Assembly (NCBI RefSeq): GCF_018736065.1
Contig: NZ_CP076128.1
Location: forward strand, 2,932,001 to 2,996,000
Origin: Flammeovirga kamogawensis
GTDB lineage: Bacteria > Bacteroidota > Bacteroidia > Cytophagales > Flammeovirgaceae
DNA: 64,000 nucleotides
Reading direction: 5' to 3'
The stretch's first letter is position 1, and every line of letters starts with the position of its first letter. Shown here one piece after another: positions 12,079 through 22,795 of this stretch. Under the pieces are notes generated by a model, which was given only the letters and a program-made list of their open reading frames with translations, ran no database searches and was not told the origin of the DNA. A program made the position numbers and the translations under genes.

Positions 12079-12600
12079 TCACTTTAATGTTGAAATTTTC
12101 ACTGACCATAACTTTTGCATAAATGCTGTATTGGTCAACATCAGTCTTTGGTTGTTTTCTGTAATGATAGTTGTAAAGAATAACCCTATATCTGTTATTG
12201 CTCCTTCGATACCATCACCTTCGTAGATATGAATTTGATCACCAATCTTTAATGGGCTTGTTAAGAATATAATTACTCCTGCTGTAATGTTAGATAGGTG
12301 CGACCATTGAGCAAAAAATGCAACGCCTATAATTGTAAAGATAGAGGTCAAATAAATACCTAAATCTTCCGAATTCACCTCCCAAACCCCTAAAATCAGT
12401 AATATTGATATTACAATTATTGCTACATTAATAACTTTAGAGATAACTACTTTTCTTCTTGTTTGAAAAGTAGTCGTCATTACTGTTTTATTTAATATTC
12501 GTCGAAACGAGAATTTTAAGGTTAGGGCAACACCTATTATCAAGATTGTTGAAAAGATATTACCTATATTAATAGTGATATTTTGAAAAACATCTGTCAT
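12079..12600 (-). CDS. Small MscS-type mechanosensitive channel protein
   Basis: 173 residues: three membrane segments and then the MscS pore and beta domain (SIFTIIGVAFFAQWSHLSNITAGVIIFLTSPLKIGDQIHI, GDGIEGAITDIGLFFTTI, ending in NTAFMQKLWSVK). It is shorter than E. coli MscS and lacks most of the C-terminal cage, a size common for Bacteroidota MscS proteins. It is the last gene of the operon running from 16471 and follows the porin gene after 10 bases. A role in osmotic release, or in efflux of a compound handled by the operon, is inference. Confidence 0.8.
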   Translation of the reverse strand: MTDVFQNITINIGNIFSTILIIGVALTLKFSFRRILNKTVMTTTFQTRRKVVISKVINVAIIVISILLILGVWEVNSEDLGIYLTSIFTIIGVAFFAQWSHLSNITAGVIIFLTSPLKIGDQIHIYEGDGIEGAITDIGLFFTTIITENNQRLMLTNTAFMQKLWSVKISTLK

Positions 12601-12610
12601 TATCTCATTA

Positions 12611-13750
12611 TTAGAAGGTGAAAATCATACCCATTGTATACGTTTTTATAGGGAGTAAACTTTTCTCTGTACTAAAAACTGAATAGGTTCTTATTCCGGC
12701 ATAAATATCAAAATTTAAAGGGTTAATTTTTTGTTGAGCATATACTCCTATACTTTCAATTTTCTCGTTTTCATTACCAATTGAAAACCCTTCAGAATAA
12801 TCTAAAACGAAAGATGTTGAACCATATTTCCACCAATTTCTCTCTATTCCTAACCTAATAATATATCCGTTAGAATTATTAATGTCATCAATTTTGCCTG
12901 CCGTTGAGAATAAAGATGAGATACTCAACCCTGTAGCATGATGTTTTCCTGATAATCCCAAAACCGTTCTACCCGAAAAAGTAGGTGAAGGCTGATGTTC
13001 ATAAGATATATAAGATCTAAAATCCCATTGTTCGTAGTTCTTGAAATAATTGATGGCTGCATCCCATTGAGCAGATGTACTTATACTTGCTTGTACTTCT
13101 AAACCATCAAAAAAAACGGGACTTCTATAACGTACTCTATCTGTAATTAACATTCTATCTGGAGTATAAAAATAATCTCTAATTTGAGTATCACTCAGTT
13201 CTCCTGATTCTCGATCTCTAAAATATAACCCTTGAGAGGCTAGTCCTAAAATCAAGATATTACCATTTGCTATACCACTTAAATCACTATGGAGAAACAT
13301 TGTAGAAGAAGTTAAACCTAATCCTACGTCTATATACCCAAACTTTTCATGTCCAAAGGTCAATTCACTTGCCAACATTCTAATCACCGAACCAGGGTTT
13401 GACTGCTCTTGTGTAATATGAGATGGCCTTCTACTCTGCATAGCCACTTCTATATTAGCTCCTAAATAAAAAGGCAATGATTTTTCACTTTGGACAACTA
13501 GTTTTAACCGTGAAGGTGCTTGGTCTGAGTCCATCACATAAGGTCCTTCCAATGTACCGCCGCCATCATCCACCATCATTATTGACTTATGAACTCTACC
13601 TGAGAAATTATAGGTAAACTTTGGCTTTGGAATACTATCATTGATTGTGTTAGTATCTTTTTCTTCTAGTATTTCTGAGGCATATGATTTTAGATTTCCA
13701 AAAATAAAAGTGGATAGAATAGCAAGGAGAACATGAGTGATTTGTTTCAT
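12611..13750 (-). CDS. Outer-membrane porin-like barrel protein
   Basis: 379 residues with a signal peptide ending around SYAS (residue 25). The mature part opens with YNFSGRVHKSIMMVDDGGG, then a loop and SRLKLVVQSEKS...LGANIEVAMQS, and alternates amphipathic strands up to a final TYTMGMIFTF, with a C-terminal Phe as expected for BAM-dependent barrels. The layout resembles DcaP-like/phosphate-type trimeric porins that take up small anions and dicarboxylates. Within the 16471-12079 operon it lies between the alkylsulfatase-like gene and the MscS gene, so it is a plausible entry route for that pathway's substrate. Confidence 0.75.
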   Translation of the reverse strand: MKQITHVLLAILSTFIFGNLKSYASEILEEKDTNTINDSIPKPKFTYNFSGRVHKSIMMVDDGGGTLEGPYVMDSDQAPSRLKLVVQSEKSLPFYLGANIEVAMQSRRPSHITQEQSNPGSVIRMLASELTFGHEKFGYIDVGLGLTSSTMFLHSDLSGIANGNILILGLASQGLYFRDRESGELSDTQIRDYFYTPDRMLITDRVRYRSPVFFDGLEVQASISTSAQWDAAINYFKNYEQWDFRSYISYEHQPSPTFSGRTVLGLSGKHHATGLSISSLFSTAGKIDDINNSNGYIIRLGIERNWWKYGSTSFVLDYSEGFSIGNENEKIESIGVYAQQKINPLNFDIYAGIRTYSVFSTEKSLLPIKTYTMGMIFTF

Positions 13751-13769
13751 TTTATTTTTAGTTGGCTTA

Positions 13770-13799
13770 AAGTAGTAGAGTATTGCTACCCTACTACTT
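13770..13799 (-). other. Intercistronic hairpin without a U-tract
   Basis: Arms AAGTAGTAGaGTA (13770-13782) and TACcCTACTACTT (13787-13799) with a 4-base loop lie between the alkylsulfatase-like and porin genes of one operon, 20 bases before the porin start codon. No T-run follows on the minus strand, so it is more likely an mRNA-processing or stability element than a terminator. Confidence 0.55.
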
Positions 13800-13823
13800 A
13801 GTATTACTTATCAATTAAGAAGG

Positions 13824-15638
13824 TTATTTACTGATCACCTTATTGTATTTTAAAATTGGAGCCTTAGCATCAAACCAATCAAATTGTTCTAATAACCACT
13901 GTGCCTCTGATTTATTAGTATTCACAGATACCTTTTTATTAAATAATAATTTTTCTGCATCAATTTTCCCTGAATAATAATTAGCAAATAATGCTCTTGG
14001 CACCTTAATCACTACATCTTTTTCTTTATAGTATGTAGTTGGATTTTCAATATATTCAGCCACTCCATTTCTGATATGTAATCCAAATTGAGGGCTATTT
14101 TCCACATCAGTAAATTCAAAAACAATTACTTCATTAGTATTCACACTCTTTTCAGGATTAATTCTTACCCTCATTAAATTCACATAAGTTCCTGGTGCTG
14201 ATTCTATCACCTCATCTACTTCCGGCAACATCATATGAGGGATAATCACCTTATTTTCTAATGCTCTTGCTTGTCCTAAATACCAAGATCTAGAAATAGA
14301 AGACTCTGTTGTTTGTCCCATTTTTCTTAAAGCATCTGCTTTTTGCTGACGAACTTTTTGATCATTAGGGTATACTTTATATAAGTAATCTGATAACTGA
14401 GTAGCCCATGTATATTCTTTATTTTCCATGGCAGTAATGATGTTTTCCATCATTTTGGTTTTCCCTCCAAAACCTTCAATCATTTTTTGAGCTTCTACAC
14501 TTGGCTCAACTGTATTGATTTTAGTCGCATTACCATCGTACCATCCTAACGCATTATTGTAAATATTTTGAGGATAATGACTCATTTCGCCATACGTTAA
14601 CTGGTTGGTAGGCCACTCTGCAAGATGCTTCGGTAACTGAATGCTATGACGCATTTCTTCTGGAGTGGCTCCTAATAATGTTTGTCTTAGTGTTTGATCA
14701 TATAAGAACGCTAAACCATCATGGTAATTTGTTACTGCTTCGACCACTTTATCTTTTCCTGAAATGGCAAATGTATGTGTACTAATCAAGTATTCAGGAT
14801 TCAAATCTCTAATCTTTCTAAGTCCTTCCATCCAAGGAAGTGGATCTCTATACATAGACCCTCTTAAAGTATATTGATTTGAGTAAAATGGCCAATATAA
14901 ATTGTTTAAGATGACATCTTTTTCAGGGAAATACACCATTAAACAATCATCAGTATCACTACCGTAATTTGTGAAAAATTGCATTTTTACACCGTCAATA
15001 GTTAATTCTTCACCATCTTCAACAGGTTTAGTTACCTGCATAAACCCTTTTTCATTTTTCCCTATTGGAGACGAAAATAATGGAGCATCATCCCCTTCAT
15101 TTGGTGTATAAATATCAAATTGTTCATATGCTCTTGCCGTTAACACTGGAGCCAATTCTGGAATAGATGAACCAAGACCTTTACTTTCTTTTATGTTTTT
15201 ATTAAGGTTTGAATGTCCAATAATATTATAGGTCTGTTGATTTTCTAATAAAGAAGTTGTTCCCCATACATAATGTGCGTGACTATAAATAACTGTCTTA
15301 ACAGGTTTATCACTTACATTTTTTATTTCATCTAAAAACTTTTTACCATCGATTATATCATTTCCTGTATCGTAAACTATCAAAGAATTTTCTCCTTCAA
15401 TAACGCCACAATTAACGTGTGCAAAACCTTCAATACTCCAAATTCCGTCTGCTAATTGTACAACATTGGGTTGATGAGGCATTGTTTTTACAATAGAAAT
15501 AGGAGCTTCTTGATTTACAATTCCTCCATTTGGAAGAACAGTTGTTTCTACTTGACTTCCCATATATTTATCTTCTTGAGCTTGTAGCGTACCACACATA
15601 ACTAAAGAAGTGACTGCTATTGATAATATCTTTTTCAT
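13824..15638 (-). CDS. Alkylsulfatase-like metallo-beta-lactamase-fold protein with an altered metal site
   Basis: 604 residues with a signal peptide (ending LQAQED), so exported. The order of motifs is that of SdsA1/YjcS linear alkylsulfatases: MBL domain, TLRGSMYRDPLPWMEG, the dimerisation domain (YGEMSHYPQNIYNNALGWYDGNATKI) and an SCP2-like C-terminal domain from about residue 480. The zinc motif HxHxDH is, however, HAHYVW at residues 120-125; the expected Glu in APAEMLFYFP is replaced (TDDCLMVYFP), and the AExxTHxLHN stretch reads NNLYWPFYSN. Only the two motif histidines and the late STH histidine remain. Either the protein is not a zinc sulfatase or it uses another cofactor. Second gene of the 16471 operon. 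Confidence 0.8.
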   Translation of the reverse strand: MKKILSIAVTSLVMCGTLQAQEDKYMGSQVETTVLPNGGIVNQEAPISIVKTMPHQPNVVQLADGIWSIEGFAHVNCGVIEGENSLIVYDTGNDIIDGKKFLDEIKNVSDKPVKTVIYSHAHYVWGTTSLLENQQTYNIIGHSNLNKNIKESKGLGSSIPELAPVLTARAYEQFDIYTPNEGDDAPLFSSPIGKNEKGFMQVTKPVEDGEELTIDGVKMQFFTNYGSDTDDCLMVYFPEKDVILNNLYWPFYSNQYTLRGSMYRDPLPWMEGLRKIRDLNPEYLISTHTFAISGKDKVVEAVTNYHDGLAFLYDQTLRQTLLGATPEEMRHSIQLPKHLAEWPTNQLTYGEMSHYPQNIYNNALGWYDGNATKINTVEPSVEAQKMIEGFGGKTKMMENIITAMENKEYTWATQLSDYLYKVYPNDQKVRQQKADALRKMGQTTESSISRSWYLGQARALENKVIIPHMMLPEVDEVIESAPGTYVNLMRVRINPEKSVNTNEVIVFEFTDVENSPQFGLHIRNGVAEYIENPTTYYKEKDVVIKVPRALFANYYSGKIDAEKLLFNKKVSVNTNKSEAQWLLEQFDWFDAKAPILKYNKVISK

Positions 15639-15664
15639 TGTAATTATTAATTAGAAGTGATTGA

Positions 15665-16471
15665 TTATTTAGAGAAAACGAAGTTGGCCATTAGCCTAAA
15701 TTCTTGTGTTGGTGCCAAATCTGGTCTGACCACATATTTGTAATATTGAGCACCGATAGCAACAGGTAAATTTCCCATGAATATTACTTTACTGAGTCCT
15801 CCTCCAACAGGTACAGTCCATTGTTGACCTTGTGCATGATCCCAGTTTGCCATAATTGTAGGGAATGTATTGATGATCCATCCATTCCCTAAACTGTAGG
15901 CAATAAGTGGCTGGAATACCATTTGGTTAACTCCTGCTCTTGAGTTGTCTCCAGCAAATGACCATGTTTGTCTGATTACACTATCAAAAGTCCATTTTCC
16001 AGTTTGATAAACAAGTACTGCAGATAAACCGCCACTCCATTGTCCTGATCCAAAGGCATCACTTGTAGCTGTTGGTAGATTAATGGAAGGTCCTACACCC
16101 CAAGCTACTTTTTTGACTGTTTTAGGAGAGAACAAAAGAGAGTAGTTGATATCTGTTAACCCCCATTGTCCATCAATTTTTCCTATCTCAGCACCTCCAT
16201 CCATTCCTGGGGTATAATTGACACCAATAACAGCTCTGTGGATTAGGTTAAAGTTATCATAACTCGTTGCATGAATTGGTTGGAATGATAAACCATAACT
16301 CACCGAATTATCTGCATTGTAACCGATGTTATTTTGGATAGGTAGTGCTGATAATTTTGATAATGGATTCTGCAATTTCTGTGCTATCTCGTCAGCTCTA
16401 CTCTGACTATAAGCCAGTGAACTTGCTGAGAGTAGCAATAGTAGAGTGAGGTATTTTAATGTTCCTTTCAT
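15665..16471 (-). CDS. Outer-membrane transporter-like barrel protein (type often mislabelled neuromedin U)
   Basis: 268 residues with signal peptide (SSLAYSQSR). The mature N terminus ADEIAQKLQNPLSKLSALPIQ and the later strands (AWGVGPSINLPTATSD, QTWSFAGD, FQPLIAYSLGNGW, WTVPVGGGLSK) are typical of a bacterial barrel family widely mislabelled as neuromedin U and related to meta-pathway/phenol-type porins. It is the first gene of a four-gene operon with the alkylsulfatase-like protein (26-base gap), porin and MscS, and carries the shared composite operator 65 bases upstream. Confidence 0.72.
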   Translation of the reverse strand: MKGTLKYLTLLLLLSASSLAYSQSRADEIAQKLQNPLSKLSALPIQNNIGYNADNSVSYGLSFQPIHATSYDNFNLIHRAVIGVNYTPGMDGGAEIGKIDGQWGLTDINYSLLFSPKTVKKVAWGVGPSINLPTATSDAFGSGQWSGGLSAVLVYQTGKWTFDSVIRQTWSFAGDNSRAGVNQMVFQPLIAYSLGNGWIINTFPTIMANWDHAQGQQWTVPVGGGLSKVIFMGNLPVAIGAQYYKYVVRPDLAPTQEFRLMANFVFSK

Positions 16472-16507
16472 GATTGAATGATTATGTTCTTTGATTAGAT
16501 TACCTTA

Positions 16508-16577
16508 CAAATGTCTCACTCTATCAGCTCTTATGTTAGTTAAACACTGTATGTAACGGTAACATGAGAAATGTTAC
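16508..16577 (-). promoter_or_regulatory. Promoter and composite operator, site A, of the porin/alkylsulfatase-like operon
   Basis: TTAGTTA (16536-16542), four bases, then CTGTATGTAACGGT (16547-16560). The weak -7 box on the minus strand is GACATTTG (16515-16508), 28 bases from the first T of TTAGTTA. The same element and spacing recur at 20084-20140 and 21110-21168. A further inverted repeat GTAACAT/ATGTTAC lies at 16559-16577. The expected -33 TTTG is absent and is replaced by the operator, which suggests activation. Confidence 0.7.
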
Positions 16578-16639
16578 ATGGAGGTTGGTTTTGGTTTTAA
16601 TTGATCACCTATAGTTCTACAAATTTTCTGAGATTTGCT

Positions 16640-16880
16640 TTCAAGCTTCCTTCTTCTTCATTTTTCCATTGATGAAAAAACGAAGCAAAAAAATCTAGGC
16701 TGTGAATGCAAAAGCTAAATTCCATTACTCTCGCCTAAATGATTTTAAACTCGATCAAAACTACTTCGTTTTGAGATGCTCAAACATGAAAATCATTTTT
16801 AACGGCTCATTCAATGAAATTTTTAACGCTTTTCCCTTCAAGGCCGAGGGTAGTACTACTTACTTTTAGATCAAAAGTTT
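16640..16880. repeat. Gene-free structured element, probable multicopy Bacteroidota intergenic repeat
   Basis: No plausible coding frame. It contains nested inverted repeats: AAATGATTTT (16737-16746) with AAAATCATTT (16789-16798), and inside it CAAAAC (16756-16761) with GTTTTG (16768-16773). A second hairpin spans 16656-16685 (CTTC/GAAG arms around TTTTTC/GAAAAA). ATTTTTAACG occurs twice (about 16796 and 16819). The composition, with GGCCGAGGG, differs from the surrounding AT-rich spacer. From memory, similar blocks occur many times in Bacteroidota genomes; I cannot confirm copy number here. Confidence 0.5.
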
Positions 16881-16908
16881 CAAATTGAAATGTTTTTATC
16901 TTCCATCT

Positions 16909-16951
16909 ACAAAAAAGAAAAACCACCTCATTTACGAAAAATGAAAGGTGG
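16909..16951 (-). terminator. Intrinsic terminator of the tannase/MarC operon
   Basis: Arms CCACCT...CATTT and AAATG...AGGTGG (16923-16951) are followed on the minus strand by a T-rich run. It ends the transcript that starts near 20077. Confidence 0.75.
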
Positions 16952-17015
16952 CCCTCATTGGTTTAGTTTAAAAACTAAGTTAGTTGACTATGAAAAATTT
17001 ACTGGTTTCTGTTAT

Positions 17016-17510
17016 TTATTCTAATACATCATCATCTATTCTATCAATTAATTCTTCTATTTCTTGAATTGTAGACTTTCTTTTTTTCCTTGCCTTCTCA
17101 ATTACAACTTCAGTATTACTTCCATTGGCAATTTGAATATTATAATAATCTATCAAGGTTTTTAAAGCATCAAGTCTAGAGGCAATTTTCATTTGTTCTA
17201 CTTGTTCGGCAAGTGCTTTTTCAGATTTCTGTTGTGCCTTGGCAGATTTTATCAATTGTTTTCTATTTGCAGCCACCTCCTTTCTCTGAATTTCTAAATC
17301 TTGTTTTGTGAGAAAGATCGTATACATTAACCCAGCAAAGGCTAAACCTGAAAACAATGAATTAATCGCTCCAAATAAATCACCAAAAGCACCTCTCTTA
17401 TCCCAAGTGTCTAACCCGAAGTAGATGAATAACGCTGAAGTCATCCAAATGATCACGACAATCAATATCATGAACTTCAACGTTACTGTTTTATTTATCA
17501 CTTTCTTCAT
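17016..17510 (-). CDS. Two-helix membrane protein with cytoplasmic coiled coil, unknown function
   Basis: 164 residues. Two membrane helices (about 10-32 and 40-66) flank the motif DTWDKRGAFGDLFGAINSLFSGLAFAG, which I have seen as a conserved start in a family of small bacterial membrane proteins, some annotated as phage-exclusion-like. Residues 68-125 form a heptad-rich coiled coil (QDLEIQRKEVAANRKQL), then a charged tail ending in DRIDDDVLE. Last gene of the tannase/MarC operon, 25 bases after MarC. Function unknown; a role as envelope sensor or scaffold is only a guess. Confidence 0.6.
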   Translation of the reverse strand: MKKVINKTVTLKFMILIVVIIWMTSALFIYFGLDTWDKRGAFGDLFGAINSLFSGLAFAGLMYTIFLTKQDLEIQRKEVAANRKQLIKSAKAQQKSEKALAEQVEQMKIASRLDALKTLIDYYNIQIANGSNTEVVIEKARKKRKSTIQEIEELIDRIDDDVLE

Positions 17511-17534
17511 GATTTTAATTAATGATGACCTTTA

Positions 17535-18209
17535 CTAAGACATCAATAGTTGAATTTTATCAATAATTGGTTCTAAGAATAATTCACTCTTCATATACCC
17601 ACCAATACCATCAAGGACGAACTGAAAGGCAATACAAATTAATAGGAATCCCATTATTCTAGTTAAAGCATCTAAGCCTGTAACACCAAGTACTTTTGAT
17701 ATTAATGGAGCACCTCTTAGTGCCATAAAAGCAACTAATACTACGAGTAAAACACCCATTGAAATACCGACATACCCGGGTAAGTTATCTGAACCTGCCG
17801 CCATACTTATCACAACAGATATTGATCCAGGACCAGCCATCGAAGGCATTGCTAATGGGGTAAAAGCAATATCACTTTTCTTCTTAGACTCTTCTCTCAT
17901 TTCCTCAGAAACTTCATCTGTTTCTTTGGGGTTCAACATCCCAAAACCTACTTTTAGAATAATTAAGCCACCTGCTACTCGAATGGCCGGAATTGATATT
18001 CCAAAAAATTCTATAATGATTGCTCCTGACCATAAAAAAGTAAGGAGAATCCCTGCCATAAATAAACAGGCCATTAATGCTTGCTGATTTGACCACTCTC
18101 TGGAGTGTCCCTTTGTTAATGATAAGAACAAAGGAACACTACTAAAGGGGTTTGAAATGGGTAGTAATGCAAGGAATGTAATAAATGCAACTTCTATAAT
18201 ACCTATCAT
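17535..18209 (-). CDS. MarC-family integral membrane protein
   Basis: 224 residues with six membrane helices. Family landmarks: FLALLPISNPFSSVPLFLSLT at the N terminus, GLIILKVGFGMLNP, then FTPLAMPSMAGPGSISVVI and ALTRIMGFLLICIAFQFVLDG. MarC proteins are inner-membrane proteins of unknown transport function, once wrongly linked to multiple antibiotic resistance. It lies six bases after the tannase-family gene in the same operon. A second MarC gene, at 35442-36080, differs clearly in sequence. Confidence 0.9.
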   Translation of the reverse strand: MIGIIEVAFITFLALLPISNPFSSVPLFLSLTKGHSREWSNQQALMACLFMAGILLTFLWSGAIIIEFFGISIPAIRVAGGLIILKVGFGMLNPKETDEVSEEMREESKKKSDIAFTPLAMPSMAGPGSISVVISMAAGSDNLPGYVGISMGVLLVVLVAFMALRGAPLISKVLGVTGLDALTRIMGFLLICIAFQFVLDGIGGYMKSELFLEPIIDKIQLLMS

Positions 18210-18215
18210 AATTGT

Positions 18216-19790
18216 CTAGTTTCCACAGTTAAAAGATTTTACATCACGAGTATCACCTACTCCATCGTATTCAGCAGCTGTAGGATAAGGACAAAGTAAT
18301 CTCGAACCTGCAGGCTTCATTTCTTCATCAATAAAATACACAATGATTTGTTCAGGGTCTTTTTCATTTGCCACCCAATTATCTATTTCATCTACCCAGT
18401 TTACATACCATGGGCCATCTCCACCAGCACAGTGCAATACACCCGGCATCATGAACAATTTCACGTCATCTTCTGCTGTTTCATCAAAGTCAATCACATC
18501 TTCATAATAACCAATGGTACCTAATGAAGTAATCGCAGGATCAGACCATCCAGAGTACATCAATAACTTTCCTCCGTTGGCTCTAAATTTTGATAAATCT
18601 GGACTTGAAGCATTCAACGTTTGACCAATAAATAAAGCATCATCTCTGAAAGTATCATAATCAAAATCTGTATAATCCCATGTTGAATCTTGGTAGATAA
18701 AGAACTTCATTAAATGTGTACCAAAACCATATTGATAGTTTGGAGGCGTAGGGAATTTTTCTTCCGACGAATTATCAATTCCTTGATGAAATGTATTTCC
18801 ATCATCTACATGATTCAATCCACCCGTAATCCATTTTGCCCATCCATCTTTATGTGTCTCTCCTCCAAAAGGAAAACCATAAAATATATCTCCATTTTTA
18901 TCTTGTGGTCCTTCGTAAACAGCTTTTAAGGCATCAATTTGTTCTTGTGATAAACAATCTTCTTTATTATCACCTTCACATAACAATGTTTCTATATCAA
19001 AATGACAAGCTCTTGGATCATTTAAAATTCCATCTTTGATACCATCCAACTCATCACACATTTCTAAATAAGCGTCTTCTACTAATTTTAAATCAGATAT
19101 ACTTACCAAAGGCTCATCTAAATTATTAGGATCTGGAAACATTTTACTCACATTATGTGTCATCCCCATGGCTAAACCTGAAGTCCATTCATAGGCTGGT
19201 GCTCCAGCCACTATACCATCAAAATCATCTGGGTATCTTTGTGCTTCCATCATCGCTTGGCCACCGCCCCTAGAACAACCCACAAAATAACTATGTTCAA
19301 TTTTATTGTTGTAAAAAGCTTCAATAATAGCCTTAGAAACAACTGTTGTTCTATGTACTGCCATGTGTCCAAAGTTGACAATAGCTTCCATATCTCCTTC
19401 TGCCCATCGGCCATCTATTGGGTTAGCACCTTCATGACCGGTATCTGTACCTACCGTAGCATAGCCTTTTTCTAAAACATTATAACTTAACGCCAGATTG
19501 ATGACCGACCCTACAAAGCCTGCACCTCCACCGAAAACAAATTTTCCATTCCAATTATCAGGAAGTAATAATTCAAACTTAGTATTCTTCCCAATAATCC
19601 CAGCTACTTTATAATGAGGAGCCATAGCATCTTCCTTTGATATAGAAGTAATATTTACATCTGCTATTTCAGGAATATTATCAGGGTTTCCTCCTTTATT
19701 CTGTTTAATAGTATATGTAAAACCAACGAGAGTAGATAATGACAAGGTTAATATAAGCACCTTTAGAAGGTTTAATTTTTCTTTGTTCAT
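18216..19790 (-). CDS. Tannase/feruloyl esterase family protein, exported
   Basis: 524 residues with a signal-like helix (LKVLILTLSLSTLVGFTYTI). The tannase-family CS-D-HC arrangement is complete: Cys172-Ser173 in GCSRGGGQAMMEA, Asp417 in YSGWSDPAIT and His453-Cys454 in PGVLHCAGGDG, giving a Ser-Asp-His triad with the cysteines bridging it. A lid domain rich in Asp/Glu with probable calcium sites (DELDGIKDGILNDPR) lies between. Members hydrolyse ester bonds of gallates, ferulates or similar aromatics, and some cleave MHET-like esters. The gene overlaps the upstream small gene by 4 bases (ATGA), indicating translational coupling. Confidence 0.88.
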   Translation of the reverse strand: MNKEKLNLLKVLILTLSLSTLVGFTYTIKQNKGGNPDNIPEIADVNITSISKEDAMAPHYKVAGIIGKNTKFELLLPDNWNGKFVFGGGAGFVGSVINLALSYNVLEKGYATVGTDTGHEGANPIDGRWAEGDMEAIVNFGHMAVHRTTVVSKAIIEAFYNNKIEHSYFVGCSRGGGQAMMEAQRYPDDFDGIVAGAPAYEWTSGLAMGMTHNVSKMFPDPNNLDEPLVSISDLKLVEDAYLEMCDELDGIKDGILNDPRACHFDIETLLCEGDNKEDCLSQEQIDALKAVYEGPQDKNGDIFYGFPFGGETHKDGWAKWITGGLNHVDDGNTFHQGIDNSSEEKFPTPPNYQYGFGTHLMKFFIYQDSTWDYTDFDYDTFRDDALFIGQTLNASSPDLSKFRANGGKLLMYSGWSDPAITSLGTIGYYEDVIDFDETAEDDVKLFMMPGVLHCAGGDGPWYVNWVDEIDNWVANEKDPEQIIVYFIDEEMKPAGSRLLCPYPTAAEYDGVGDTRDVKSFNCGN

Positions 19791-20062
19791 TTTGATAGAT
19801 TTTTATGAATTTTAATACTGTATTTTCTAATGAAATAGTCCAACTCTTCATGAAGTTCTTGGAGAGTATCTTTATACTCTTCGATCAAATCGCCTTTGGT
19901 CTCCTTATTCAACACTTTAATTTGATGTTTACATAAGTAATAGTCTCGTGCAAGATCTATTATGGTATCGATAGAGTCAAAGAGATGTTCTATTGTATTA
20001 GTATGCTCCGGGAAATCTCTTTTCAGCTCATTTTTCCAAAGACTTTCGATAACTTCTTTCAT
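19787..20062 (-). CDS. Small helical protein of unknown function, first gene of the tannase operon
   Basis: 91 residues from the ATG at 20062 (MKEVIESLWKNELKRDF). An upstream in-frame ATG at 20086 is unlikely because it overlaps the -7 box of the inferred promoter (20084-20091). The protein is soluble, Glu/Lys/Asp rich and predicted all-helical (HTNTIEHLFDSIDTIIDLARDYY, KDTLQELHEELDYFIRKY). I do not recognise a family. Its stop overlaps the start of the tannase-family gene (ATGA), so the two are coupled. Possibly a small regulatory or adaptor subunit; no function can be stated. Confidence 0.55.
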   Translation of the reverse strand: MKEVIESLWKNELKRDFPEHTNTIEHLFDSIDTIIDLARDYYLCKHQIKVLNKETKGDLIEEYKDTLQELHEELDYFIRKYSIKIHKNLSK

Positions 20063-20083
20063 AGTTTTCCGTTTTATCTTGTG

Positions 20084-20140
20084 CAAATTTGAGCAGGAAA
20101 ACCTTCCTATGTTAGTTATATACCGTATGTTACGGTTAAG
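20084..20140 (-). promoter_or_regulatory. Promoter and composite operator, site B, of the tannase/MarC operon
   Basis: TTAGTTA (20112-20118), four bases, CCGTATGTTACGGT (20123-20136), with a 6-bp inverted repeat ACCGTA/TACGGT around TGT. The minus-strand -7-like box CAAATTTG (20091-20084) is 28 bases from TTAGTTA, exactly as in site A. Compared with site C the symmetric positions change together (CCG/CGG versus CTG/CAG), which supports recognition by a dimer. Confidence 0.7.
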
Positions 20141-20354
20141 TCTATCTTTATATTCTATTTCACAAAAACATCATTGTTTACGATGTTATATACCTCCTAA
20201 AAAACATATACTTAAACACGTTAGGCTTATTTTAATCACATAAAATTCATGAAGTGAAATCATAACAATTAGATCCTTCTGTAATTGGTTGTGGGGTGAA
20301 AGATGCTTTGAATGTGATGAGATATTTGAAGATGTAAGAGGGAGAAGTAGTTCG

Positions 20355-21041
20355 TTATTCAAGGGTTACTTTTTTACGCCCAAACAAAGGTCCGACTTTC
20401 AAAGGATGTATCACATGATTTATTTTGACACGTATCAAGTTAGTTTCATTTATATGCTGTCTTTCGTTTCTTTTATAACCTCTTTCATTGATATACTCTA
20501 ACGTGACAAAAATATTCTTATAGGCTCTCCTCGTTATTCCTATATACGTTCGATTACTCACTATTCTAAAGTCATTTTCATTTAAAGCAACAAAGGGTTC
20601 TATTCCAAAAGTCAAATAGCCAAAAGAGGAAGAATACTTAATAGAAGGATTATACCTCAACCTTATTTTTGTCTGTGCATTATCTCCAAAAAATTGTTCT
20701 TCAAAACGAACTCTTTGAGAAAGGGTAAAAGCATTAAACCGTGTTTTAATTACAAAATCTTGATAAGGGCGTATTTCTTGACGAACCTGTGTTCCATCAA
20801 CTAGCATTACCCCTGCTCTTACATACATATTTTCAGTAATATCATATCTTAATCCACTTCTAATCTGTCCTCTATTCCCTTCTGAGAAATACTCCCGGTA
20901 TCCTATGTCTGAGTCAATACTAAACTTATAAGACAGCTTATATTGATTAAAATAATGTAACCATAGAATATCTTGAGTGAAAGAATTATGAGGTATTATT
21001 CCCAATACCAACAGGAATAAAATCTTCCTATATCTTATCAT
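20355..21041 (-). CDS. DUF2490-family outer-membrane protein
   Basis: 228 residues with signal peptide (NSFTQDILW). The pattern LWLHYFNQYKLSYKFSIDSDIGYR, RSGLRYDITENMYVRAGVM, FTLSQRVRFEEQFF, and RLRYNPSIKY is characteristic of DUF2490, a Bacteroidota barrel family of unknown function. It is divergent from the regulator at 21203, with composite site C between them. The C terminus (GRKKVTLE) lacks the usual terminal aromatic residue, a small oddity for a barrel. Confidence 0.78.
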   Translation of the reverse strand: MIRYRKILFLLVLGIIPHNSFTQDILWLHYFNQYKLSYKFSIDSDIGYREYFSEGNRGQIRSGLRYDITENMYVRAGVMLVDGTQVRQEIRPYQDFVIKTRFNAFTLSQRVRFEEQFFGDNAQTKIRLRYNPSIKYSSSFGYLTFGIEPFVALNENDFRIVSNRTYIGITRRAYKNIFVTLEYINERGYKRNERQHINETNLIRVKINHVIHPLKVGPLFGRKKVTLE

Positions 21042-21109
21042 AATTTTTGATTTTTAAATCCCTAATTATAAAAACTTGTTATAAGATTTCACGTTATATT
21101 CATTAGCAC

Positions 21110-21168
21110 GAAATATTAAAAAAAATATTGAACTATATTAGTTATTAACTGTATGTTACAGTTAATAG
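21110..21168. promoter_or_regulatory. Composite operator, site C, between DUF2490 gene and its divergent regulator
   Basis: TTAGTTA (21138-21144), four bases, CTGTATGTTACAGT (21149-21162) with perfect 7-bp arms AACTGTA/TACAGTT around TGT. The minus-strand -7-like box AATATTTC (21117-21110) sits 28 bases from TTAGTTA as at sites A and B. The right edge is 35 bases before the regulator start codon, so binding here could also give autoregulation. Confidence 0.68.
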
Positions 21169-21202
21169 TAAACGTCTATCAAAGTCATAAAATCTTCTAG
21201 AA

Positions 21203-22795
21203 ATGATCGATACTCAATTGCAGGAACAACTTCAAAAAATCACATTAAGTGATGAGTTTATCAACAAACCAAAAATGAGAAGACTCTTAGAATATATTGT
21301 GACTGAATATATTGAAGGAAGAGCGGATCAGTTGAAAGGATATAATATTGGAATAGATGTTTTTGAGCAAGGAGATAGTTTCGATCCTGATCAAAATGCT
21401 TTAGTGCGTATTAATGTTGGTCGATTAAGGCGGTTATTGAAATTATATTACTTAGAAGATGGAAAAAATGATCCTCTAAAAATTGATATCCCAAAAGGGA
21501 AATATATACCTCTAGTTACGCCAATTGAAAATAGCATTGATGAAAATAAAAATACATCAAACACACTAAAACCAACAATACAATATACTCCCGTAGAAGA
21601 AAAGGCTTGTGTCACTATTCTACCTTTCAAAAACCTATCTAGTAATAAAGATTTAGAATACTTTTGCTTTGGATTTTCTCAAGATTTATCCATTCAGTTA
21701 TCAAAATACGATGATATAAAAATTATAGGTTCAACACTTAGTTTTGATAATATCAATTATGACAATACGTTTATTGAAGAATTAAAAGCTCAGAACATTC
21801 GTTTTGTTATTCAAGGTGATATGAAAATAATGGGAGCACAAGCGAAGTTATCCATTCATATGACCGACCTTAGTGACAATTCACATACTTGGGGAGAGCA
21901 TTATAAATTCAATCTTCAAGAAGATGACCTTTTTGATATTCAAGAAAATATTACAGCCCAAATTGCCACTCACGTAGGGTCGGAAACAGGGCATATCAAT
22001 GAAAAAAGATACAAAGAATTATTAGTCAGTAAACCTACCACTTATAAAGAGGATCAAGCTTTGCTCATGTGGTATTTTTATCTCTCTCGCTTTACAGAAG
22101 ATTCCCATCATCAGTTTTTATCAACACTAAAAGAATCTTTAAAAGAAGACCCTGATTCTGCTATTTTAAATGCATTACTGGGGAATTTACATGGTGCTGT
22201 CTACATTAATGCAATGGGTACTGAACATGACAAAGAAGAATGTGAAAGGTTAATCGAAAAAGCATATACCTTAAATCCTAAAAGTCAGATTGTACAGGTA
22301 ATGATTGCTTACAAGACATTTATTTTCGATGAAAAAGACCGCTTCTTTCATATTGTCAACAATAGTATAAAAACAGCAGCAAACACTCCCCTTCGTTTAG
22401 GTATTTTTGCTAATTTCTTGTGTTTGTATGGAGAGTGGGATAAAGGAATAGAATTGTTAGACAGGATTTACTTAAACAATATTGATTTCCCTGTCTGGCT
22501 TCATGGTGTGAAATGTTTATCTCATTATAGAAAACTTGATTATGAAAAGGCGTTAGTTGAGGCCAATAGTTACCATGTTCCTTTAGTAATTTGGGGACCT
22601 CTTCTAAGGGCTGCTTGTTACGCTCAGCTTGGTCGGACAGAAGAAGCACAAAAGCATCTCCAAGAACTCTTAAAACTGAGACCTGATTTTGTGCAGAATA
22701 GTAATCTATTAATACGACGATTTATAAAAGAAGAATCACTTGCAAAGCATTTAGTAGAAGGCTTAGAAAAAGCAGGTTTTACCATAGAAGTTTAG
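21203..22795 (+). CDS. Transcriptional regulator with N-terminal DNA-binding-like domain, TolB-like domain and TPRs
   Basis: 530 residues, no signal peptide or membrane helix, so cytoplasmic despite the TolB-like part. Residues about 1-108 match the N-terminal domain of proteins often misnamed adenylate cyclase: KMRRLLEYIVTEYIEGRAD, KGYNIGIDVFEQGDSFDPDQN, VRINVGRLRRLLKLYY, IPKGKYIPLV; this is a winged-helix-like DNA-binding region. Residues about 130-255 are TolB-N/FlgO-like (ILPFKNLSSNKDLEYFCFGFSQDLSIQLS). Residues 275-520 form TPR-like helical pairs (LGRTEEAQKHLQELLKLRP). It is divergent from the DUF2490 gene and flanked by site C, making it the best candidate to bind sites A, B and C. Confidence 0.78.
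   Translation: MIDTQLQEQLQKITLSDEFINKPKMRRLLEYIVTEYIEGRADQLKGYNIGIDVFEQGDSFDPDQNALVRINVGRLRRLLKLYYLEDGKNDPLKIDIPKGKYIPLVTPIENSIDENKNTSNTLKPTIQYTPVEEKACVTILPFKNLSSNKDLEYFCFGFSQDLSIQLSKYDDIKIIGSTLSFDNINYDNTFIEELKAQNIRFVIQGDMKIMGAQAKLSIHMTDLSDNSHTWGEHYKFNLQEDDLFDIQENITAQIATHVGSETGHINEKRYKELLVSKPTTYKEDQALLMWYFYLSRFTEDSHHQFLSTLKESLKEDPDSAILNALLGNLHGAVYINAMGTEHDKEECERLIEKAYTLNPKSQIVQVMIAYKTFIFDEKDRFFHIVNNSIKTAANTPLRLGIFANFLCLYGEWDKGIELLDRIYLNNIDFPVWLHGVKCLSHYRKLDYEKALVEANSYHVPLVIWGPLLRAACYAQLGRTEEAQKHLQELLKLRPDFVQNSNLLIRRFIKEESLAKHLVEGLEKAGFTIEV

Follow-up and report, generated by a model that had tools for sequence, protein, structure and literature searches.

A composite operator shared by three operons beside the gene for a probable TolB/TPR regulator with an unnamed N-terminal domain in Flammeovirga kamogawensis

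In a 64,000-nucleotide stretch of the Flammeovirga kamogawensis genome (contig NZ_CP076128.1, positions 2,932,001 to 2,996,000; hereafter the window), three minus-strand operons are each preceded by the same composite DNA site, and next to one of these sites lies the divergent gene, starting at 21203, of a protein here called REG, in which a winged-helix-like N-terminal domain is joined to TolB-like and tetratricopeptide repeat (TPR) parts. On the sequence patterns set out below, REG is probably an activator that binds these operators and switches on the three neighbouring operons, and probably also a RimK-type operon elsewhere in the genome.

The window and the whole 6.97 Mb genome were searched with the motif TTAGTTA-N4-CYGTATGTWACRGT, using the reversed pattern as a control. 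The motif occurs exactly at 16536-16560, 20112-20136 and 21138-21162 (sites A, B and C), ahead of the minus-strand genes that begin at 16471, 20062 and 21041, respectively, where shuffles of the window lead one to expect 0.03 matches at up to three mismatches; this bears out the composite site that a preliminary description had placed at three minus-strand promoters. Site C lies between a DUF2490 gene and REG. A genome-wide scan of the kind suggested in that description found exact sites only at these three positions, all inside the window, and at up to three mismatches added a single match, on contig C2 and with three mismatches, while the reversed pattern gave none. When scored with a profile trained on 12 sites from four relatives, with the window's own sites excluded, site B reached 46.4, site A 44.0 and site C 36.1 bits, against 9.1 bits for the next-best position in the window, although this test is not fully independent, since G006, a close relative, contributed two of the 12 training sites and these have the same sequences as sites B and C.

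Conservation was compared across nine Flammeovirga genomes, the window's own being G000. REG orthologues are present in G006 (95%), G007 (80%), G004 (79%) and, in diverged form, G002 (40%); none was found in G003 or G008, which gave no match, or in G001 and G005, where the match is limited to the N-terminal domain of a different protein. A scan in which R was permitted at one further base, with up to three mismatches, found 29 matches across the nine genomes, and the reversed control found 16. The matches with no more than one mismatch number 13; every one falls in the five genomes with REG, within about 8 kb of it, and there are no such sites in the four genomes lacking an orthologue. Two of the four two-mismatch sites are near REG (in G002 and G004) and one stands before the G002 RimK operon, a placement shared by the G004 site; the fourth, in REG-less G003, looks like a chance match. 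The tannase gene was found in four of the nine genomes, and these are the four with a close REG. Since the genomes are related, five of five against none of four is only suggestive, and the placement of the sites beside REG carries more weight than the count of presences and absences. The three operons share a site that has no other exact occurrence in the genome and is conserved alongside the regulator, which is the pattern by which we recognise a regulon.

Fifteen aligned sites, read in gene orientation, follow (T/A)ACCGTwACATACGGT-N3-TAACTAAYATA, that is, an imperfect palindrome and a proximal box. The box had earlier been read as TTAGTTA; it is present at the sites and proves in the alignment to be longer, TAACTAAYATA. 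At the outer variable pair of the palindrome nine sites have C/G, two have T/A and four are non-complementary. The symmetric covariation described before thus holds for 11 of the 15 sites and is weak, as site A itself is T/G and both T/A sites belong to one orthologous pair.

An octamer like TANNTTTG, which PMC6847099 gives as the -7 consensus of the Bacteroidetes housekeeping sigma factor, starts 16 nt past the site, with a mean of 5.13 of six conserved positions matched over the 15 sites. At any other offset from 8 to 29 the mean is at most 3.13 of six, and in 12 of the 15 sites offset 16 alone scores highest, while in the other three it ties. The -7 element of a housekeeping promoter stands at one fixed offset, with spacing identical in all 15 sites, and is poor at site C. 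The 28 bases originally reported between site and -7 box hold good: counted from the 25-bp core to the octamer end, they equal 16 nt from the extended box.

A fixed spacing to the -7 box and a position at about -33 would also be found if TAACTAAYATA and the -7 box formed the promoter of an alternative sigma factor, with the palindrome incidental. We regard this as very improbable, given that the -7 box belongs to the housekeeping type, that the palindrome is as conserved as the proximal box over the 15 sites, and that in the whole genome sites A and B alone have an exact copy of the box followed by TTTG at the -7 spacing; with up to one mismatch, this combination has 11 matches, as many as its reversed control. 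TAACTAAYATA was rejected as a general promoter element for the same equality of counts, because a box that matches no more often than its control is not a common promoter element. A different objection concerns the sign of regulation. The operators overlap the place where RNA polymerase would contact -33, so that REG could bind them and repress, keeping the operons off until a signal arrives, and at site C could shut off its own divergent promoter too. This we think unlikely: site-to-box spacing is constant in all 15 sites, a feature needed more by an activator, and site C has a poor -7 box, neither argument being decisive. Activation by the 21203 protein, proposed in the preliminary description, is likely from this promoter geometry, from which we infer it.

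Outside the window, weaker sites precede a gene pair encoding a zinc-protease-like and a RimK protein at C2:899849 in the window's genome (three mismatches), at C2:222545 in G002 and at 258144 in G004, the G000 site being the most degraded of the three. The loci concerned are L004:79-1404 (contig C2 of the window's genome), L060, L067 and L183. The operon is also present in REG-less G003 (gene match 71% over the query), and there the flanking CCGTATTA stretch is recognisable and the operator is absent. From this pattern, the RimK-type operon is a probable member of the regulon.

Turning to REG itself, a Pfam search found TPR matches in the protein but no family for its first ~110 residues, and a PDB sequence search with the N-terminal domain gave nothing credible (best E 0.12). 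AlphaFold models this domain with a predicted local distance difference test (pLDDT) score of 94.4, as helices 2-14, 23-37, 46-52 and 67-84 followed by a C-terminal hairpin (92-107). Its weak Foldseek matches include the response-regulator DNA-binding domain 3q9v (E 5.6, TM 0.40/0.45) and ScpB, and we read it, from the model, as a putative divergent winged helix. The full-length model (pLDDT 86.4, predicted TM-score 0.68) comprises the N-terminal domain, a disordered linker, a TolB-like part and TPR helices; its Foldseek matches include TPR proteins, the periplasmic domain of CadC and, further down the list, TolB. A clear membrane segment was not found (highest 19-residue hydropathy 1.15), and REG is probably soluble.

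As modelled, this architecture recalls regulators of the CadC/ToxR/HilA type, which combine an N-terminal winged-helix-like domain and C-terminal TPR-type helices in one chain, and whose known members bind close to the promoter. REG differs from them in its TolB-like middle part, in lacking a clear membrane segment and in a putative DNA-binding domain that lies under the Pfam cut-off for Trans_reg_C: PF00486 gave no match to REG at E 0.1 for the full length or E 1 for the domain, below the gathering score. Links to the OmpR/PhoB (Trans_reg_C) family are faint, comprising weak Pfam similarity in 3 of 10 A1 members (best E 0.0025) and 1 of 34 A3 members (E 0.11), the match of the REG domain to 3q9v, and half-sites that in some relatives are direct repeats 11-13 bp apart. 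By analogy, REG may work like a CadC/HilA-type regulator and yet stand apart from that type, because its putative DNA-binding domain falls short of the Pfam threshold.

The N-terminal domain recurs in other proteins. It is patchy within the order (13 of 194 sampled genomes) and the phylum (15 of 395), and among 80 relatives kept out of 103 the named genomes show it to be common in Rhizobiales and present in Acidobacteriota, Desulfobacterales and Gammaproteobacteria; identity over the domain is 36-46% for the non-Flammeovirga rows of A3 (Rhizobiales, Acidobacteriota and others). One relative, L107, also has TPR matches. Hydropathy peaks near residues 117-140, as for a membrane segment, in 12 of 14 Bacteroidota members (all but L238 and L239), and several members of the domain family adjoin glycosidase, fucosidase or sulfatase genes. 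Among these proteins, L207, L209, L210 and L211 (in G001, G004, G009 and G012) are ~390-400 residues long, have a probable membrane segment and are encoded divergently beside large hydrolase genes, those next to L207 being GH2 and fucosidase genes by Pfam. Searches of open-access PMC literature found no paper describing the domain or the regulon.

These genes suggest a link between the domain and a DNA sequence. The outer half of several REG operators is ACCGTTA (ACCGTAA in others), and ACCGTTA-N5-ACCGTTA is a conserved block in the divergent spacers of L207, L209 and L021, from Flammeovirga, and L211, from another genus; L210, from a third genus, has it too. The raw count of this repeat is unimpressive: it has 11 exact matches in 18 genomes of the family, and its reversed control has 7. 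Seven of the 11 are found no more than ~110 bp from a domain gene; the remaining four form two orthologous pairs, one located within a gene and the other upstream of a different gene. A narrow rule (direct repeats 11 or 12 apart, 300 shuffles) was applied to nine loci drawn from other families of the phylum. Two beat all 300 shuffles (L237, L241), four were marginal, with 7 to 16 shuffles as good (L238, L240, L239, L235), and three were not above chance (L236, L242, L243). A wider rule, requiring two half-sites that together have no more than one mismatch and start 8-20 bp apart, in any orientation and within 300 bp upstream, was passed by five of the nine, four of them from one taxonomic family. 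Among 46 distinct domain genes, counted without the close REG orthologues L070-L073 and with the G002 REG (L083), the wider rule was passed by 14, compared with 0 of the 62 further genes at those loci and 6 of 1220 mononucleotide shuffles, figures to be read knowing that the rule was widened after the narrower result had been seen, that the 14 loci include orthologues, and that the control genes are mechanical open reading frames unmatched for intergenic DNA.

These properties of the test weigh against our interpretation, as do several observations made elsewhere in the analysis. The wider rule was failed by 32 of the 46 domain genes, including the diverged G002 REG and soluble paralogues of the genus, and the latter (L024-L028, again L074, L084-L087) have no convincing upstream operator. 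ACCGTAA, the form in many REG operators, is one base off ACCGTTA. Foldseek found nothing in the PDB below E 2 for the N-terminal domain (best E 2.1), and a second RimK copy in G002 has no operator. In G007, none of the three sites lies directly upstream of REG, so that autoregulation is not general. Finally, site C itself lies upstream of REG, as it would if the sites belonged to another regulator, encoded elsewhere, of which REG is merely one target. We consider this last explanation improbable, since sites with no more than one mismatch are confined to the five REG genomes and to the vicinity of REG, operator-like half-site pairs recur by genes whose sole resemblance to REG is the N-terminal domain, and the G007 regulon has its three sites with none directly ahead of REG.

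The local regulon under REG put forward in the preliminary description is well supported by co-occurrence, by the absence of the site at a shared promoter in REG-less G003 and by the similar half-site near genes with the same domain; the binding itself we infer. In the mechanism we favour, the winged-helix-like domain would recognise the half-site ACCGTwA, and the operator would consist of two inverted half-sites (ACCGTwACATACGGT) with the box TAACTAAYATA in the -33 place, 16 nt before a housekeeping-type -7 box. REG on the operator would then position RNA polymerase, as class II activators do, and the TolB-like/TPR part is probably its sensing or partner-binding part. The features concerned are listed in Table 1.

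Table 1. Operators, promoter elements and genes of the putative REG regulon in the window.
Feature	Positions	Strand	Remarks
Operator A (TTACCGTTACATACAGTGTTTAACTAACATA)	16532..16562	-	upstream of the 16471 operon; motif scan, alignment, profile
Operator B (TAACCGTAACATACGGTATATAACTAACATA)	20108..20138	-	upstream of the 20062 operon; motif scan, alignment, profile
Operator C (TAACTGTAACATACAGTTAATAACTAATATA)	21134..21164	-	between DUF2490 gene and REG; motif scan, alignment, profile
-7-like octamer GACATTTG	16508..16515	-	16 nt downstream of operator A
-7-like octamer CAAATTTG	20084..20091	-	downstream of operator B, 16 nt after the extended box
Poor -7-like octamer AATATTTC	21110..21117	-	operator C; 4/6 conserved positions
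REG, 530 aa	21203..22795	+	winged-helix-like domain 1-107, disordered linker 111-132, TolB-like alpha/beta ~134-238, TPR helices 243-523
DUF2490 gene	20355..21041	-	PF10677, E 4.3e-25; predicted to be under operator C
Small protein, 91 aa	19787..20062	-	first gene behind operator B; no confident Pfam match
Tannase/feruloyl esterase family protein	18216..19790	-	PF07519, E 3.5e-101
MarC family membrane protein	17535..18209	-	PF01914, E 3.9e-55
Small protein, 164 aa	17016..17510	-	probable end of operator B operon; no match above Pfam cut-off
Barrel-like protein (label of the preliminary description)	15665..16471	-	first gene behind operator A; no Pfam match
Alkylsulfatase-like metallo-beta-lactamase-fold protein	13824..15638	-	PF14863, E 3.7e-34; PF14864, E 6.4e-11
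Porin-like protein (label of the preliminary description)	12611..13750	-	no Pfam match
Small MscS-type channel protein	12079..12600	-	PF00924, E 2.5e-10

Operon limits were drawn from gene order. Two barrels plus a porin had been named among the products; Pfam recognises the DUF2490 protein and leaves the proteins of 15665-16471 and 12611-13750 without a match. In G006, G007 and G004, sites precede both the small protein-tannase genes, which in G007 and G004 are followed by MarC, and the barrel-hydrolase-porin-MscS genes, and in G004 and G006 the DUF2490 gene has a site. G007 has one site before a lipoprotein gene and an antiporter-like gene, and two DUF1254/DUF1214 genes occupy the place of the alkylsulfatase. 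In the diverged G002, one site heads DUF1254/DUF1214 genes followed by MarC on the same strand, an MscS-type gene has a weaker one (28.7 bits) in front, and another lies between REG and a small protein gene with a SecA-like gene. MarC and MscS-type genes thus recur behind sites across the relatives. Because these relatives partly swap the alkylsulfatase and tannase genes for DUF1254/DUF1214 genes, while MarC and MscS-type genes recur, the earlier suggestion that the regulon handles an ester or sulfated compound comes down to a guess. Our own guess, a tentative one, is that it may serve an envelope or solute stress response with hydrolysis of some amphiphilic ester or sulfate.

Some arrangements in these genomes were noted in passing. 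The SecA-like gene of G002 (L042:1477-4593) encodes 1039 residues and follows the small protein behind the REG-type site by the diverged REG. G006 has a second, diverged DUF2490 and barrel pair (L035:5190-6653; 47% and 51% to the window's) downstream of the regulon, with no site ahead, and in G004 (L040, 27994-31643 of the joined stretch) tandem alkylsulfatase-like genes (58% and 78% to the window's) stand behind a single operator. Further afield, the Rhizobiales members of the domain family (L104-L106, L169 and others), 310-440 residues long, often have a divergent neighbour gene that resembles pdxJ; an upstream alignment of 13 Sinorhizobium/Ensifer loci contains a conserved block with no ACCGTTA-like repeat by eye. 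In G049, a fragmented genome of the order, there are 24 domain matches; in the 12 stretches examined (L195-L206) several copies lie near sulfatase-like genes, one of them confirmed by Pfam (L195), mostly without ACCGTTA pairs.

In light of these comparisons, we lean towards the view that the N-terminal domain of REG represents an unnamed DNA-binding family spread over several phyla, whose Bacteroidota members would read ACCGTTA or a sequence near it, either as direct repeats 11-13 bp apart (many of the ~400-residue, probable-membrane members, several of which adjoin genes for a glycosidase, fucosidase or sulfatase) or as inverted pairs with a promoter box (TolB/TPR members such as REG). A regulator domain that has neither a Pfam model nor a close PDB relative would thereby be tied to a concrete DNA sequence, which would make its targets predictable. 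Beyond the present envelope and hydrolase regulon, such prediction would take in genes that neighbour fucosidases and sulfatases elsewhere in the Bacteroidota, where regulators of this kind are little known. If this is true, a single half-site could predict which genes an uncharacterised class of regulators controls, some of its members likely being glycan sensors.

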